The translations under genes were made by a program, and so were the position numbers. The notes under the pieces are model-generated. The model did no database searches and had not been told where the DNA came from. It saw only the letters and a program-made list of their open reading frames with translations. From contig NZ_QUZZ01000008.1 of NCBI RefSeq assembly GCF_003545695.1, forward strand, positions 1-64,000: a stretch of DNA of 64,000 bases. The letters are read 5' to 3'. Position 1 is the first letter of the stretch; each line of letters starts with the position of its first letter. Below, in pieces: positions 31,801 to 56,859 of this stretch. Source of the stretch: Taibaiella helva (GTDB lineage: Bacteria; Bacteroidota; Bacteroidia; Chitinophagales; Chitinophagaceae).

Positions 31801-32255
31801 CACTGTGTACTTTTTCTCCCAGCGGCGTAACGCCGCTGCGGTAGCTTTTTTTTATAACATTCCCTTTGTCATGCTGAATGGAACTTGCGCAGCATGCGGA
31901 ATGAAGTATCCCCAATGCTTATTAATGGCTTGAGATACTTCGGTTGCTGCGCAGGCTTCAGTATGACAAAAGGGAGTGTTGCAGTATACAATATTGCTCA
32001 CAGAGACACTAAAATTTTTTCACTGTGACTTTTTCTCGCGGCAGCGCAAAGGTGTTGTGGTGGTTTTTTATAACATTCCCTTTGTCATGCTGAATGGAAC
32101 TTGCGTAGCATGCGAAACGAAGCATTCCCAATGCTTGTTAGTGGCTTGAGATACTTCTGTTGCTGCGCAGACCTCAGTATGACAAAAGGGAGTGCTGCAG
32201 TATACAATATTGCTCACAGAGACACTAAATTTTTTCACTGTGACTTTTCTCGCAG
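31801..32255. repeat. Tandem ~216-bp direct repeat with nested hairpins
   Basis: Two copies with a period of about 216 bp, plus a partial third copy of the junction CACTGTG(T)ACTTTTTCTC (at 31801, 32021 and 32236). Each copy holds a long imperfect inverted repeat (about 31860-31975 and 32076-32191): CCCTTTGTCATGCTGAA pairs with TTCAGTATGACAAAAGGG, with nested GCGCAGC and GAAGTATC/GATACTTC arms. There is no coding potential. It resembles dispersed hairpin elements common in Bacteroidota genomes. Confidence 0.85.
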
Positions 32256-32341
32256 CGGCGCAGCGCCGCTGCGAGAAAAGCTAAACTTGTGTCTTTGTGC
32301 CTTCGTGAGAAAAATAAAAAGCTACCGTGCGGAACTATTGC
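32256..32341. other. Palindrome and TTTGTG(C) motif behind the tandem repeat
   Basis: The palindrome CGCAGCGGCG/CAGCGCCGCTGCG lies around 32251-32273 and is followed by a segment (about 32284-32318) whose GTCTTTGTGCCTTCGTGAGAAAAATAAAA resembles the element at 53318-53353 and the right repeat of the GxxExxY cassette. Confidence 0.45.
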
Positions 32342-50744: not shown

Positions 50745-50932
50745 GAGCCAGGATTTAAGAATCAAGAACCAGGTATCAAGTACCAAATTTCAAAAATTTA
50801 AATTCCAAGTTTCAGAATCCAAATTCCAGAAGCAAAATTCTAAAATTCAAATGCCCAATACTTGAGACATCATACACTAATACCCAATACGAACATCTGT
50901 CATCTAATATCTAATTTCTAATAGCTAACCTC
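50745..50932. repeat. Degenerate AT-rich intergenic repeat, copy 2
   Basis: A low-complexity stretch of AAATTCCA, TCTAATATCTAATTTCTAAT and CCCAATAC words, the reverse-oriented relative of 19998-20128. It fills the space between tetR and fadN. Confidence 0.6.
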
Positions 50933-50935
50933 CAA

Positions 50936-53314
50936 ATGAATCGGATCATTAAAAAAGTAGCTGTGCTGGGGTCCGGGGTAATGGGCAGCCGTATCGCCTG
51001 CCATTTCGCCAATATAGGACTGGAAGTGCTGCTGCTGGACATTGTGCCCAAGGATGCGCCCGAGGGCGACAGCAAAGCCCGCAACAAGATCGTGAACGAC
51101 GCGCTGGCCTTCGCGCTCAAATCCAATCCTTCTCCTATCTACAGCAAGTCTTTCGCCGGCCGGATCAGCACCGGTAACTTCGACGACGATCTGCCCCGTA
51201 TTAAAGATTGCGACTGGGTGATCGAAGTGGTGATCGAAAGGCTGGACATCAAGAAGCAGGTGTTTGCCAATGTAGAGCAATACCGGAAGCCCGGTTCGCT
51301 CATCACCTCCAATACTTCCGGCATTCCTATACACCTGATGGCCGAAGGTCGCAGCGAAGACTTCCGGAAACATTTCTGCGGTACACACTTTTTCAACCCG
51401 CCGCGTTACCTCAGGCTGCTCGAGATCATTCCTACTGCCGATACGGAAAAGGAAGTGGTGGATTTCCTGATGCACTACGGCGAAAAATTCCTGGGCAAGA
51501 CCACTGTACAGGCTAAGGATACACCCGCCTTTATCGGTAACCGTATTGGTGTGTTTAGCATGATGAGCCTGCTGCAGTATGTGGAGAAGACCGGTATGAC
51601 AGTGGAAGAGGTGGACAAGCTTACCGGACCTGTGGTGGGCCGGCCCAAGTCGGCGACCTTCCGCACTGCCGATGTGGTGGGAATAGACACCCTGGCCCTG
51701 GTGGCCAGCAGCCTGGTAGAAAATGTACCCGGTGATGAAGCGAAGGATATGCTGAAAGTGCCCGACTTCGTCAATAAGATGATCGCCAACAAATGGCTGG
51801 GCAGCAAAACAGAGCAGGGCTTTTTTAAAAAGGTAAAAGGAGAGGATGGCAAAAGCGAGATCCATGCCCTGGACCTGAAGACGCTCGAGTATAAGCCTTC
51901 GCAGAAAGTGAAGTTTGCAGCCCTGGAAGCGACGAAGCCGGTGGACGACCTGCGGCAGCGGCTGCGGATGTTGATCGCTGCCAGGGATAAGGCCGGTGAT
52001 TTTTACCGCGCTACCTTATTCCCGCTGTTTGCCTATTCAAGCCATCGTATCCCGGAGATCTCCGACGAGCTGTATAAGATCGATGATGCGATCAAAGCCG
52101 GCTATGGCTGGGAGCTTGGTCCTTTCGATACCTGGGATGCCCTGGGCGTGGAAGCCACGCTGAAGGCGATGGAAGAAGCCGGCAACAAGCCTGCCCAATG
52201 GGTATACGATATGCTGTCTGCCGGTAACAGTACCTTCTACAAGGTTGAAAACGGTCATCGGCTGTATTATGATATTCCTTCCAGATCCTATAAGATCATT
52301 CCCGGAACCGAAGAGTTTATCCTGCTGGAAAATATAAGCGAGAGCAAGACCTTGTGGAAGAATAGCGGCACCACGCTCACCGACATTGGCGATGGTATTC
52401 TGAACCTTGAGTTCCATACCAAGATGAACAGCATCGGGGGAGAAGTGCTGGAAGGCATCAACAAGGCCATCGACCTGGCCGAGAAAGAATACAAAGGCCT
52501 CGTGATCTCCAACGAGGGCGCCAATTTCAGCGCCGGCGCCAATGTAGGCATGATCTTTATGATGGCCGTAGAGCAGGAGTATGATGAGCTCGACTTTGCC
52601 ATACGCCAGTTCCAGAACACGATGATGCGCATCCGCTATTCTGCCATACCGGTTGTGGTAGCGCCGCACAATATGGCCCTGGGCGGCGGCTGCGAAATGT
52701 GCCTGCATGCTGATAAGGTGGTAGCGCATGCCGAAGCATACATCGGCCTCGTCGAATTCGGTGTGGGATTGATTCCCGGAGGCGGCGGCTCCAAGGAGTT
52801 TGCCGTACGGCTGTCCGATTCCCTGCACGAAGGCGATGTAGCCCTCAATGCTTACCGCGATCGCTTCCTTACCATAGGCCAGGCAAAAGTATCTACCTCG
52901 GCAGAAGAAGCCTTTGAGCTGGGCTACCTGCGCCGTGGTACCGATAAAGTGGTGATCTCGCGCAACCGCCTGCTGGCCGAAGCTAAAGCCGAATGCCTGG
53001 ACCTGGCCAATGCCGGCTATGTGCAACCGGCGCACCGGAAAGACATCAAAGTGCTGGGCAAGCAGGCCCTGGGCCTGGCCTACCTGGGCGCTAATTCTAT
53101 GCTCACGGGCAACTACATCAGCGAACACGATGTCAAGATCTCGCAGAAGCTGGGCTATGTGCTGGCCGGCGGCGACTTGTCGCAGCCTACCGAAGTCAAC
53201 GAACAGTATCTGCTCGACCTGGAACGCGAAGCCTTCCTCAGCCTCACTACTGAGAAGAAGACCCTGGAGCGTATCCAGTCGATATTGACCGGAGGTAAAG
53301 TATTACGTAACTAA
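50936..53314 (+). CDS. fadN: 3-hydroxyacyl-CoA dehydrogenase / enoyl-CoA hydratase, FadN type
   Basis: The 792-residue protein has a dehydrogenase half first (KKVAVLGSGVMGSRIACHFANIGLEVLLLD: NAD motif at about 11-18) with HFFNPPRYLRLLEIIP and a C-terminal dimer domain (KDTPAFIGNRIGVF). A hydratase/isomerase half follows, with GANFSAGANVGMIFMM and LGGGCEMCLHADKVVAHAEAYIGLVEFGVGLIPGGGGSKEFA. The order dehydrogenase first, hydratase last is that of Bacillus FadN, not of enteric FadB. It catalyses two middle steps of beta-oxidation, and fadA and fadE follow. Confidence 0.93.
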   Translation: MNRIIKKVAVLGSGVMGSRIACHFANIGLEVLLLDIVPKDAPEGDSKARNKIVNDALAFALKSNPSPIYSKSFAGRISTGNFDDDLPRIKDCDWVIEVVIERLDIKKQVFANVEQYRKPGSLITSNTSGIPIHLMAEGRSEDFRKHFCGTHFFNPPRYLRLLEIIPTADTEKEVVDFLMHYGEKFLGKTTVQAKDTPAFIGNRIGVFSMMSLLQYVEKTGMTVEEVDKLTGPVVGRPKSATFRTADVVGIDTLALVASSLVENVPGDEAKDMLKVPDFVNKMIANKWLGSKTEQGFFKKVKGEDGKSEIHALDLKTLEYKPSQKVKFAALEATKPVDDLRQRLRMLIAARDKAGDFYRATLFPLFAYSSHRIPEISDELYKIDDAIKAGYGWELGPFDTWDALGVEATLKAMEEAGNKPAQWVYDMLSAGNSTFYKVENGHRLYYDIPSRSYKIIPGTEEFILLENISESKTLWKNSGTTLTDIGDGILNLEFHTKMNSIGGEVLEGINKAIDLAEKEYKGLVISNEGANFSAGANVGMIFMMAVEQEYDELDFAIRQFQNTMMRIRYSAIPVVVAPHNMALGGGCEMCLHADKVVAHAEAYIGLVEFGVGLIPGGGGSKEFAVRLSDSLHEGDVALNAYRDRFLTIGQAKVSTSAEEAFELGYLRRGTDKVVISRNRLLAEAKAECLDLANAGYVQPAHRKDIKVLGKQALGLAYLGANSMLTGNYISEHDVKISQKLGYVLAGGDLSQPTEVNEQYLLDLEREAFLSLTTEKKTLERIQSILTGGKVLRN

Positions 53315-53317
53315 AAA

Positions 53318-53355
53318 ACGCTGCGCCTTTGCGCCTTTGCGAGAAAAAATAAAAA
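53318..53355 (+). repeat. CTTTGCG-type intergenic element between fadN and fadA
   Basis: The sequence GCGCCTTTGCGCCTTTGCGAG is of the same type as the right inverted repeat of the GxxExxY cassette and the segment at 32284-32318. No function is known. Confidence 0.5.
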
Positions 53356-53360
53356 TTCAA

Positions 53361-54539
53361 ATGAACGCATATATCGTAACCGGTTTCAGAACAGCAGTGG
53401 GCAAAGCGCCCCGGGGCGGCTTCCGTTTCACCCGTCCCGATGTGCTGGCGACAGATGTGATCAAACACCTGATGGCGTCGGTACCCCAGGTCAATGCCGA
53501 ACAGGTGGATGACCTTATCGTGGGCAATGCCATGCCGGAAGCCGAACAGGGCCTCAACTTTGCCCGTTTTGTCTCTTTAATGAGCTTCGATACCGATAAA
53601 ATATCGGCAATGACCGTAAACCGCTACTGCGCCTCGGGACTGGAAACCATTGCCATCGCTGCGGCCAAGATCCACAGCGGACTGGCGCACTGCATCATCG
53701 CCGGCGGTTCTGAAAGTATGAGCCTTATCCCCATGGGTGGCTGGCGCGTGGTGCCCGACCCGGATACTGCGCTGGCGCATCCCGATTATTACTGGAACAT
53801 GGGCCTTACCGCCGAGCAGGTAGCCAAAGAATACAAAGTAAGCCGCGAAGACCAGGACCAGTTTGCTCTGCATTCGCATGAGAAAGCCCTGAAAGCCATA
53901 ACAGAAGGCCGCTTTAAAGAGCAGATCGTACCGGTGACTGTGAAGGAAACCTACATCGGCGCCAATTGCGGTAAGAAAAAGACCCGCGAGTACGTGGTCG
54001 ATACCGACGAAGGGCCGCGCGCCGATACCTCCGTAGCAGCGCTGGCCAAGCTGAAGCCTGTGTTTGCCGCAGGCGGCAGCGTTACCGCGGGCAACTCTTC
54101 GCAAACCAGCGACGGCGCGGCTTTTGTAATGGTAGTGAGCGAACAGTTCCTGAAAGAAAATAACCTTACTCCTGTAGCGCGTATGGTAAGCTATGCCTCT
54201 GCCGGCGTGCCGCCCCGCATCATGGGTATCGGGCCGATAGAAGCCATTCCCAAGGCCCTGAAGCTGGCCGGTATGAAGAAAGATGATATCGATCTTATCG
54301 AACTGAATGAAGCTTTCGCTTCACAGTCGCTGGCCGTGATCAGGGAGCTGGGTCTGAACCCGGATATCGTCAACGTCAATGGTGGAGCGATAGCTTTAGG
54401 CCATCCTTTGGGCTGTACCGGGGCCAAGCTTACAGTGCAGGTATTGGACGAGCTCAAACGCCGTGAGCAGAAATACGGCATGGTGACTATGTGTGTCGGT
54501 ACAGGGCAGGGTGCTGCGGGTATATTTGAAAGGCTGTAA
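53361..54539 (+). CDS. fadA: Acetyl-CoA C-acyltransferase (3-ketoacyl-CoA thiolase)
   Basis: The ATG at 53361 gives [17 protein letters not shown], the natural start. The 392-residue enzyme has Cys90 in [24 protein letters not shown] near 345, and [15 protein letters not shown] near the end. It cleaves 3-ketoacyl-CoA with CoA in the last step of beta-oxidation. It is 46 bp behind fadN. Confidence 0.93.
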
Positions 54540-54541
54540 CC

Positions 54542-54579
54542 ACCACAAAGAGACAAAGGATGCGCCAAGAAACGCAAAG
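54542..54579. repeat. Left inverted repeat of the GxxExxY cassette
   Basis: Its reverse complement matches 54983-55021 at about three quarters of positions, with the CAAAGAG-CAAAG core conserved. It starts 3 bp after the fadA stop and the gene starts 15 bp after it. Confidence 0.7.
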
Positions 54580-54593
54580 ACAGTATTGACTAT

Positions 54594-54974
54594 ATGATGT
54601 CTGAAAACGAATTGTCTCATAAAGTTATTGGCCTGGCCTTAGCAGTTCATACAGCGCTCGGACCTGGACTCCTGGAAAGTGCATATAAGGCTTGTTTGTT
54701 TTATAAGTTACAGCAGTCCGACCTGTATGTTGAAGTTGAAAAGCCTATGCCTTTGGTTTTCGAAGAGGTTAGGTTGGATTGCGGATACAGGATAGACTTG
54801 TTAATAGAGAATAAGCTGTTGGTAGAACTAAAAAGTGTCGATGCATTGCATGATGTGCACTTGGCTCAGACATTAACTTATCTGAAGCTTGTTAACTACA
54901 AGCTCGGTTTATTAATCAATTTTAATGTTGCACGACTTAAAGAAGGTATCAAGCGTATTGTTAATGGCTTATGA
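54594..54974 (+). CDS. GxxExxY protein
   Basis: The 126-residue protein has the family hallmark GLLESAY in LGPGLLESAYKACLFYKL (about 24-41), DCGYRIDLLIENKLLVELKSV (putative PD-(D/E)xK-like core, with D and ExK) and NYKLGLLINFNVARLKEGIKRI. The family is widespread, small and of unknown function; a nuclease-like fold has been suggested. The gene is bounded by imperfect inverted repeats and interrupts the fadA-fadE pair. Confidence 0.9.
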   Translation: MMSENELSHKVIGLALAVHTALGPGLLESAYKACLFYKLQQSDLYVEVEKPMPLVFEEVRLDCGYRIDLLIENKLLVELKSVDALHDVHLAQTLTYLKLVNYKLGLLINFNVARLKEGIKRIVNGL

Positions 54975-54982
54975 GCGCTATA

Positions 54983-55021
54983 CTTTGTGTTCTTCGCGCC
55001 ATTCTTTGCCTCTTTGCGGTT
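54983..55021. repeat. Right inverted repeat of the GxxExxY cassette
   Basis: The sequence CTTTGTGTTCTTCGCGCC followed by CTTTGCCTCTTTGCGG; inverted with respect to 54542-54579. It starts 8 bp after the GxxExxY stop. Confidence 0.7.
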
Positions 55022-55062: not shown

Positions 55063-56859
55063 ATGTCTGATACGATTAAGCTTGCTTCTGCAATCAAAGG
55101 CGGCGAATTCCTGATCAAGGATACTAAAGCCGAAGATATCTTTATTCCCGAAGACTGGAACGAAGAACAAAAGATGATCGCGGAAATGTGTCGCGATTTT
55201 CTCAAACAAAATGTCGATCCCAACCTCAACCGCATCGACGAGCAGGAAGAGGGCCTTATGCCTTCCCTGCTGGACAAGGCCGGCGAGCTGGGGCTGCTGG
55301 GGATGAGCGTGCCGGAAGAATATAACGGCGTAGGTAAGGACTTTGTGACCTCCATGCTGACTACCGAAGTATTGGGCGCCGGACATTCTTTTGCGGTGGC
55401 CCTTTCGGCCCATACCGGCATCGGCACTTTGCCCATCCTTTACTATGGCAATGAAGAGCAGAAGAAAAAGTACGTGAGCAAGCTGGCCACCGGCGAATGG
55501 AAAGGCTGCTATTGCCTTACAGAGCCAGGCGCAGGATCGGATGCGAATTCGGGCAAGACCAAAGCCACACTTTCCGCCGACGGCAAGCACTATATCCTCA
55601 ACGGTCAGAAGATGTGGATTACCAACGGCGGCTTCGCCGATATTTTCACCGTATTTGCCAAGATCGATGATGACAAAAACCTGAGCGCATTTATTGTAGA
55701 GAAAAGTTTTGAAGGCATATCGCTGAATCCCGAAGAACATAAAATGGGTATCAAAGGCAGCTCTACCCGCCAGGTATTCTTCAACGACTGTAAGGTGCCG
55801 GTAGAAAACCTGCTGTCCACACGGGAGAACGGCTTCAAGATCGCAGTGAATATCCTGAACCTGGGCCGTATCAAGCTGGGCGGTGCAGCGCTGGGCGCTT
55901 CCAAGGAAGTGATCAGCAAAGCAGTTAATTATGCCGGGGAACGCGAGCAGTTTGGCCGTCCCATCTCCAAGTACGGCGCCATTAAATACAAGCTGGCCGA
56001 GCAGGCGATCCGTACATACGCTTCTGAAGCTGCGGTGTACCGCGCCAGCCAGAATATCGAGGACGCGACCAATGCTTATATCGCCGGCGGTATGGATGCC
56101 GCGCAGGCCAAGCTGAAGGGCACGGAGCAATTTGCTATAGAGGCGGCGATCATCAAGGTGCATGCTTCCGAGGTACTGGACTATGTGACCGATGAGGGCG
56201 TGCAGATCTATGGCGGTATGGGCTATAGCGCCGAAGCGCCGATGGACCGCTCTTACCGCGATGCCCGCATCAACCGTATCTTTGAGGGTACCAACGAGAT
56301 CAACCGCATGCTTTCTGTCGACATGATGCTGAAGCGCGCCCTGAAGGGAGAGCTGGATCTCATGGGACCGGCACAAAAGGTAGCCGGAGAGCTGATGAGC
56401 ATACCGGATTTCGGAGTGCAGGAAGAGGGCCTTTTTGCCAGGGAGCATCAATACATATCCGGCTTCAAAAAAGCGATCCTGATGACAGCCGGCGCTGCCG
56501 TGCAGAAGCTGATGCAGAGCCTGAGCAAGGAGCAGGAAGTGATCCTGTACCTGGCCGACATGCTGATCGAGCTGTATGTCAGCGAATCAGTGCTGCTGCG
56601 CGTGGAGAAGCTTGTCGCCCGTACCGGCGAAGAGGTGGCAAAGGAAAAGATCGCCATAGCTAAGGTTTATCTTTTCGATGCCGCCCAGCGCATACACAGC
56701 GCAGGCCGCAATGCGCTGAACGCTTTTGCCGATGGCGACGAGCGCCGGATGATGATGATGGGGCTGAAGCGTTTTACCAAAACGGACGACTTTAATACCA
56801 CCGAAGCCCGCAGGGCTATTGCTGCCAAGCTGATCGAAGCCAATAAGTATTGCTTTTAA
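55063..56859 (+). CDS. fadE: Acyl-CoA dehydrogenase (FadE type)
   Basis: The 598-residue protein has a full ACAD core: IAEMCRDFLKQNVDP, LGLLGMSVPEEYNGVGKDFV, YCLTEPGAGSDANSGKTKA (FAD/substrate) and MWITNGGFADIFTVFA, with VQIYGGMGYSAEAPMDRSYRDARINRIFEGTNEINRML carrying the catalytic-type Glu region. It also has a C-terminal extension of about 170 residues, as in the Bacillus FadE/VLCAD group. It oxidises acyl-CoA to enoyl-CoA and passes electrons to ETF. It follows fadN and fadA in the FadNAE order, broken only by the GxxExxY insert. Confidence 0.93.
   Translation: MSDTIKLASAIKGGEFLIKDTKAEDIFIPEDWNEEQKMIAEMCRDFLKQNVDPNLNRIDEQEEGLMPSLLDKAGELGLLGMSVPEEYNGVGKDFVTSMLTTEVLGAGHSFAVALSAHTGIGTLPILYYGNEEQKKKYVSKLATGEWKGCYCLTEPGAGSDANSGKTKATLSADGKHYILNGQKMWITNGGFADIFTVFAKIDDDKNLSAFIVEKSFEGISLNPEEHKMGIKGSSTRQVFFNDCKVPVENLLSTRENGFKIAVNILNLGRIKLGGAALGASKEVISKAVNYAGEREQFGRPISKYGAIKYKLAEQAIRTYASEAAVYRASQNIEDATNAYIAGGMDAAQAKLKGTEQFAIEAAIIKVHASEVLDYVTDEGVQIYGGMGYSAEAPMDRSYRDARINRIFEGTNEINRMLSVDMMLKRALKGELDLMGPAQKVAGELMSIPDFGVQEEGLFAREHQYISGFKKAILMTAGAAVQKLMQSLSKEQEVILYLADMLIELYVSESVLLRVEKLVARTGEEVAKEKIAIAKVYLFDAAQRIHSAGRNALNAFADGDERRMMMMGLKRFTKTDDFNTTEARRAIAAKLIEANKYCF

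Follow-up and report, generated by a model that had tools for sequence, protein, structure and literature searches.

A GxxExxY gene between inverted word arrays in a Taibaiella fad operon, possibly a REP/RAYT-like unit

GxxExxY is a widespread and little-studied protein family, named solely after its motif. In the window, by which we mean the whole 64,000-nt stretch of Taibaiella helva DNA that was analysed, a GxxExxY gene is found inside the fad operon between two inverted arrays of short words. Such arms occur at many other GxxExxY loci, their word and the protein tree tend to agree, and across genomes of the phylum arm-type repeats co-occur with the gene, with exceptions on both sides. We rate it slightly better than an even bet that the gene and its arms are one evolutionary unit of a REP/RAYT-like kind, in which an unrelated nuclease would act on palindromic DNA built of its own word. 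The features of the locus are the following.

32251..32318, no strand assigned: gene-less CGCAGCG palindrome adjoining CTTTGTG/CTTCGTG words
50804..50928, no strand assigned: gene-less 7-mer-type arrays (CCAAATT and ATCTAAT words), between a tetR-like gene and fadN
50936..53314, plus strand: fadN, host operon
53318..53355, minus strand: gene-less array of the same words as the arms, in the fadN/fadA gap
53361..54539, plus strand: fadA, host operon; start ATG (the ORF list has TTG at 53337)
54542..54579, plus strand: left arm, CACAAAG/CGCAAAG-type words aimed at the GxxExxY gene
54594..54974, plus strand: GxxExxY protein, 126 aa, predicted PD-(D/E)XK nuclease fold (profile matches, structure model)
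54983..55020, minus strand: right arm, repeating the left one in inverted form, with the end CTTTGCGGT(TAA), 5' of fadE
55063..56859, plus strand: fadE, host operon

The gene at 54594-54974 belongs to TIGR04256 with 140.6 bits (cut-off 35), and its sole Pfam family is PF13366 (PDDEXK_3) with 134.5 bits (cut-off 22). The arms are 38 nt each, with an ungapped complementarity of 74% and a spacing of 403 nt. The two gaps flanking the gene have a gapped arm score of 23. Of 2000 dinucleotide shuffles 0 score as high (their mean is 7.7, their maximum 15), and among 9068 window places of equal geometry 2 do. An earlier note on this DNA had described these arms, and they are real, with the noted last base, 55021, one too far (55020). 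It had also seen that the gene parts fadA from fadE, and those two do nearly touch in an outgroup genome, G033. The related words it listed at 53318-53355 and 32284-32318 are likewise present: CTTTGCGCCTTTGCG stands at 53327-53341, in that orientation the sole match to the strict two-word pattern in the window, and there is a weaker CTTTGTG/CTTCGTG run at about 32286-32318. The CGCAGCG palindrome which that run adjoins is the arm type of a second GxxExxY copy in the genome. Within the genus, a prediction that CGCAGCG repeat counts would be raised in the genome with the matching gene failed on exact matches, which number 2 in the window's genome (G000) and 2, 0 and 1 in its congeners G001, G002 and G003. 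The word pair CGCAAAGNCGCAAAG, with one mismatch allowed, has 7 matches in the window's genome against 6 for the reversed control; this is no excess, so the weight of the argument rests on other loci. Beside the CGCAGCG palindrome, at 31848-32262, is a 216-bp unit in 1.9 copies (92%), which contains CCCTTTGTCATGCTGAA as well as its complement. The arrays at 50804-50928 contain two word types, of the kind found around four-helix-bundle genes (TIGR02436, hereafter 4HB).

To date the insert, G000 was compared with the three congeners and with G033. In G033 the fadN/fadA gap is 19 nt and the fadA/fadE gap 28 nt with the fadE start placed by alignment (50 nt in another count), and neither holds an insert. 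G000 has a word array in the first gap and the GxxExxY gene in the second; G001 has a 4HB gene with AGATGTT words and then a gene-less inverted array; G002 has a 4HB gene in both (AGAYRTT and AATACCC words); and G003 has a gene-less CRCARAG palindrome followed by a GxxExxY gene. Because G033 lacks the insert and the congeners have the slots differently filled, the GxxExxY insert is younger than the fad operon, and the slots change occupants; presence of the gene since the origin of the operon, named in the earlier note as the case against a cassette, is not what the outgroup displays. The window and G003 proteins from the fadA/fadE gap are sisters (support 88/88, a fork without a star), so that these 2 copies are probably one inherited insertion, and GxxExxY is missing in 2 of the 4 genomes of the genus. 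4HB genes are found in the same fad gaps in other families of the class (L178, L184, L187), and a second common gap, which we take to be nuoF/nuoG, has six GxxExxY loci and one 4HB locus with shared flanks. Two unrelated small gene families thus occupy the same operon slots.

The note had proposed to look in insert-free relatives for a clean joint and a target duplication. Such relatives exist, and the comparisons did show presence and absence of the insert, but because intergenic DNA has diverged between species the joint and any duplication were unreadable in G033 and the congeners, in three genomes of genus g83, and in 60 regions and ten older loci of one divergent gap. No recent transposition was seen among within-genome GxxExxY copies in G000, G003 and G289, all of which have diverged, nor were bursts of near-identical gene-bearing copies seen; copies at shared sites look inherited. 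Slot occupants do turn over, but that the unit is "mobile", as the note has it, is what we infer. The one identical GxxExxY pair found, in G292 (L424, L425), is taken as an assembly overlap of contig ends and not as a duplication, with 6.3 kb identical near both ends of a single contig. Carriage by plasmids was set aside with only 8 of 72,556 plasmid records matching at E 1e-5, and carriage by phages with 1 viral contig matching two narrow peptide patterns that detect close relatives only.

A single scan gave at least 80 GxxExxY loci chosen for nearness to the window protein, mostly from Bacteroidota, and among the loci listed a few are titled Planctomycetota, Brocadia, Acidobacteria, Chamaesiphon, Methylobacter or Ignavibacteria. 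The arm score compares the upstream flank with the inverted downstream flank, and is available for 79 of the 80 listed GxxExxY loci and 28 of 30 4HB loci, short flanks having been dropped. Its median is 20 for the 79 GxxExxY loci versus 12 for control genes on the same contigs (n = 271) and 12 in direct orientation. The control genes put the 95% line at 18 and the 99% line at 24.6, and 49 of the 79 listed loci are above the first and 28 above the second. With swapped partners as the reference, a set in which the word is often shared, only 24 of the 79 reach p 0.05. The 28 4HB loci have a median of 16, with 10 above the 95% line. For the genus itself, the five other GxxExxY loci have a median of 15 (1 above the 95% line) and 13 4HB loci a median of 20 (9 above). 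Inverted arms are found mostly in Bacteroidota but also, for example, at L103 (titled Planctomycetota), L131 (Methylobacter), L145 (Chamaesiphon) and L159 (Brocadia); they were not found at L095 or L122. The arms of L131 are long and well matched, and its GxxExxY reading frame, like that of L127, has one in-frame stop.

A second set of 60 GxxExxY loci was drawn from a phylum sample and picked without regard to arms. The arm score there is 19, versus 11 for swapped partners and 13 in direct orientation. Above the control 95% line are 32 of the 60, with 28 not above it, and 18 exceed the 99% line. By this count, clear arms are present in roughly half of unselected GxxExxY loci at this sensitivity.

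For the words themselves, loci with shared flanks were collapsed to sites with the best member kept per cluster, leaving 56 GxxExxY and 33 4HB sites from the listed loci. The word AAC(C)RCARAG was looked for within 400 nt of the gene, aimed at it; 49 of 56 GxxExxY sites have it on one side or both, versus 1 of 33 4HB sites (Fisher 2.9e-16). This class-A word is on both sides at 29 of the 56, and it is aimed away from the gene at 7 (upstream) and 11 (downstream). Autocorrelation against shuffles in 229 GxxExxY flanks has peaks at lag 9 (z 11.9), lag 12 (z 5.9) and lag 21 (z 6.0), and in 70 4HB flanks at lag 7 (z 8.2), lag 14 (z 6.5) and lag 21 (z 4.6). The ordinary explanation, that small genes have landed by chance in intergenic DNA rich in simple repeats, can point to the 160 control gaps, which are also periodic at 7 and 8 nt (z 4.7 and 3.4), to the occurrence of gene-less arrays, and to the window's genome with no excess of its word. 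The same control gaps have no 9-nt step (z 1.0, with z 1.3 at lag 21), from which we conclude that 7-mer arrays are a background of these contigs and the 9-nt step is not. The step recurs in the second set, at z 5.2 for class A and z 7.2 for loci of another class or none. Since, moreover, the two protein families differ in their word, which also tends to agree with clade, these controls disfavour the chance explanation, which we regard as highly improbable. The 4HB loci L161-L190 and those of the genus have 7-nt-step arrays with words differing by locus.

Seven word classes were defined post hoc from the arms of the second set, CRCARAG (A), CRCRGATT, CRCGAA, AGGAT, TGATT, ACATAG and CAGAATT, and mapped onto a tree of 113 stop-free proteins of 95-150 aa, which was built from few columns and leaves many forks open. 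On it, class A takes 12 changes versus a shuffled mean of 34.7, and 0 of 500 shuffles are as low. TGATT needs 2 changes (1 of 500 as low), as does CRCGAA (15 of 500 as low), and all labels jointly need 24 versus 39.6 shuffled, with 0 of 200 as low. CRCRGATT, AGGAT and ACATAG (classes B, D and F) do not cluster on this tree, and 27 of the 113 loci have no word class. The arm word thus tends to follow the GxxExxY protein tree. Aligning the repeats around other GxxExxY genes, as the note had suggested, does find inverted arms to be common, in several word classes that tend to track the protein tree. Its idea that an element with these repeats carries GxxExxY holds in that arms of such kind recur at other GxxExxY loci and gene-less copies exist; it does not hold for one fixed arm sequence.

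Whether the repeat travels with the gene can be asked across 61 genomes of the phylum. The pattern AACCRCARAGN{0,4}CRCARAG, counted with the arms of the GxxExxY genes included, is in 20 of the 61, and its reversed control in 0 of 61. Of the 61, 29 carry GxxExxY, and 19 of the 20 pattern genomes belong to these (Fisher 1.4e-7), and within six families having both states the proportions are 14 of 17 versus 1 of 7 (Fisher 0.0037). The exception, G115, has two pattern matches and no GxxExxY gene, and 10 of the 29 GxxExxY genomes have no class-A pattern. In five genomes with all their matches listed, and with positions compared by eye, 65 of 67 matches are more than 1 kb from any GxxExxY gene (G084 23 of 23, G080 5 of 5, G107 5 of 5, G093 11 of 11, G085 21 of 23), and in other genomes, such as G065, gene arms make up more of the matches. 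Gene-less copies read in G085 form palindromes 53 and 56 bp long. Palindromes can also lie within palindromes: as judged by eye, the L266 gap has four word kinds nested, of which three arm pairs were scored, and G084 (L319, L320) has other palindromes inside CRCARAG ones. Nested palindromes of different words are also seen at L262, L272 and L273.

One divergent gap was followed through the genus of G080, with flanks matched in 120 of 121 genomes, giving 60 new regions besides ten older loci that had been picked for carrying GxxExxY; two new regions duplicate older ones (L286 = L099, L271 = L152). The gap has a short state, seen in 7 regions, that spans 48-55 nt and contains one word at most, an intermediate state of gene-less arrays mostly in one orientation, and a gene-bearing state of 639-1359 nt with GxxExxY, the last in 15 of the 60 new regions (the two repeats included) and all ten older ones. 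In ten gene-bearing gaps the gene is forward in 6 and reverse in 4. No 4HB match is found in the gaps of these regions and loci, and the insertion joint is not readable at this gap.

These states are also what would be expected if only the gene moves and the arrays are its landing sites. A homing-like nuclease would then cut gene-less palindromes made of its word, and repair guided by the matching arms would copy the gene to the centre. The position of the gene at a palindrome centre, the gene-less palindromes of the same word in gene-carrying genomes, and the empty, array-only and gene-bearing states of the G080-genus site with the gene in either orientation all agree with it. Against this, arms and gene share the word-by-clade signal, and the gene-less arrays in the genus of G080 are mostly unidirectional rather than ready palindromes, and we hold this version to be quite improbable.

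A further possibility is an RNA-level element like the intervening sequence (IVS) of 23S rRNA, whose arms would pair in the operon transcript, with the stem excised. 4HB genes, which we assume to be of the S23p kind, share the GxxExxY slots, which favours it. So does orientation: where neighbours are co-directional, the gene runs in their sense at 55 of 59 GxxExxY and 18 of 22 4HB listed loci, shared sites not collapsed, in a count that took in 75 of 80 listed GxxExxY, 25 of 30 4HB, and 5 of 5 and 13 of 13 loci in the two genus sets. The published Coxiella IVS has a comparable layout, an ORF between complementary ends that RNase III cuts (PMC4990558), and the likeness of GxxExxY loci to an IVS with an S23p ORF lies in that small ORF and in the use of the same operon slots by 4HB genes. 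GxxExxY differs in being another protein (TIGR04256 only, no S23p), in lying outside rRNA, in the window between fadA and fadE, and in having no sign of RNA-pairing constraint. In 89 of 91 site clusters usable for a wobble test, arm mismatches have no sense-strand G-U excess (49 vs 55 for GxxExxY, 42 vs 44 for 4HB), and no Rfam match was found in the 7 loci examined. Divergent gaps, too, hold 13 of 75 listed GxxExxY loci, ten of them at one site. With no G-U bias and no Rfam match we prefer action at the level of DNA, and consider the RNA-level account very unlikely. The sense bias may instead come from a need for read-through transcription or from selection against antisense promoters.

The structure model of the GxxExxY protein (pLDDT 94) has a PD-(D/E)XK fold. 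It aligns by VIA with SSO0001 (4ic1), presumably a Cas4, at Z 9.7 over 102 residues with an rmsd of 4.5, then with Hjc at Z 7.0 and AddAB and AdnAB at Z 6.4, and with lambda exonuclease by Foldseek only. Since such middling Z values are common, the PD-(D/E)XK nuclease fold class is the only assignment we make from the model. A search by sequence for solved relatives had one match, a ribosomal protein at E 0.38, taken as chance. In 37 sequences G23, G25, E28, Y31, D68, E78, K80, Y96, L107, N109 and F110 are invariant, and H19 and Q92 are among the nearly invariant positions. The RecB/Cas4 pattern of D, ExK and QxxxY is therein complete as D68, E78, K80, Q92 and Y96. Cas4 has four Fe-S cysteines; the alignment of 37 sequences has no cysteine that is invariant or nearly so, so GxxExxY does not have this mark of Cas4. 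Thus the likeness to RecB/Cas4-type nucleases such as 4ic1 is in fold class and conserved residues, and the differences are the 126-aa length, the lack of such a cysteine, and a gene encoded inside palindromes. GxxExxY is under purifying selection, with dN/dS of 0.02-0.09 in 8 of 13 orthologue pairs where dS is measurable, the other five, the window's pair included, being saturated. In one genus, G085, G112, G096 and G288 (L314, L315, L316, L426) encode GxxExxY as an in-frame fusion with a RecQ helicase, with Pfam domains displayed for the G112 protein only, and G272 (L427) has a truncated form of the fusion. G291 (L428) has a 489-codon frame.

The strong purifying selection, together with apparent inheritance at fixed sites, would suit a host gene and not a selfish one, in which case replication template switching makes the palindromes and keeps their arms similar, and GxxExxY is the resident nuclease that processes them there, perhaps for its own regulation. 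The in-frame RecQ fusion in one genus and the concordant arms without an RNA-type wobble bias would agree as well. Such a host gene is, however, missing in 32 of the 61 phylum genomes and 2 of the 4 of the genus, has its slots filled elsewhere by 4HB genes, and has some relatives titled as other phyla, and we consider this reading unlikely.

Returning to a REP/RAYT-like unit of gene and arms, we picture a palindrome of the unit's own word folding out as a hairpin or cruciform, which the putative nuclease, probably with a RecQ-type helicase, would cut or resect; beyond the fused genus, such a helicase would be a putative partner. During repair, either the whole unit or just the arms, minus the gene, would be copied into further palindromes or arrays of words. 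Copying by cut and repair would explain both the reuse of the same slots and the palindromes nested in palindromes.

RAYTs, as described by Nunvar 2010 (PMC2817692), are tyrosine enzymes of the IS200/IS605 type, and their palindromes, compact and GTAG-headed, often number more than 100 per genome. The shared traits are the placing of the gene inside a pair of inverted repeats, the relation of the repeat to the protein clade and, in part, further gene-less repeats in genomes that have the gene (PMC2817692). Here the enzyme is instead a predicted PD-(D/E)XK nuclease, the repeats consist of 7-nt words arrayed at a 9-nt step, and the strict pattern has at most 23 matches per genome. No IS200/IS605-type tyrosine transposase domain was found, Pfam giving PDDEXK_3 only. 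The layout and, in part, the gene-less copies are therefore shared and the enzyme is not, which makes the GxxExxY unit REP/RAYT-like and not a RAYT. TAACTGA heptamer repeats of Beggiatoaceae, Cyanobacteria and Bacteroidetes resemble the arms as intergenic short-word arrays near start codons that are patchy across phyla (PMC4679880, in the part consulted), but they are direct repeats of a single heptamer, and that part of the text has no GxxExxY, four helix or S23. In a literature search by title, with subscription papers and preprints outside its scope, no title treats the GxxExxY gene and its arms as a unit, and the repeat words appear only under unrelated titles.

A bolder proposal takes the unit as a DNA element of a new class. 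Here a nuclease like RecB/Cas4, working with RecQ, would recognise hairpins by 7-nt words placed at a 9-nt step (9 + 12 = 21, which equals two turns of the helix). It would spread its palindrome, either together with the gene or alone, to the middle of other palindromes; 4HB genes with 7-nt-step arrays would be a parallel class competing for operon slots. We put this forward tentatively and think it rather doubtful. The coupling of repeat word to protein clade gives GxxExxY a testable substrate, and the unit offers an origin for some of the unexplained short-word palindromes in Bacteroidota intergenic DNA. Two comparisons of gene-less elements have the look of recombination between copies: L207 and L208 differ by a 1.7-kb indel ending at the arm of such an element, and L203 and L204 by a 0.8-kb indel between two of them.
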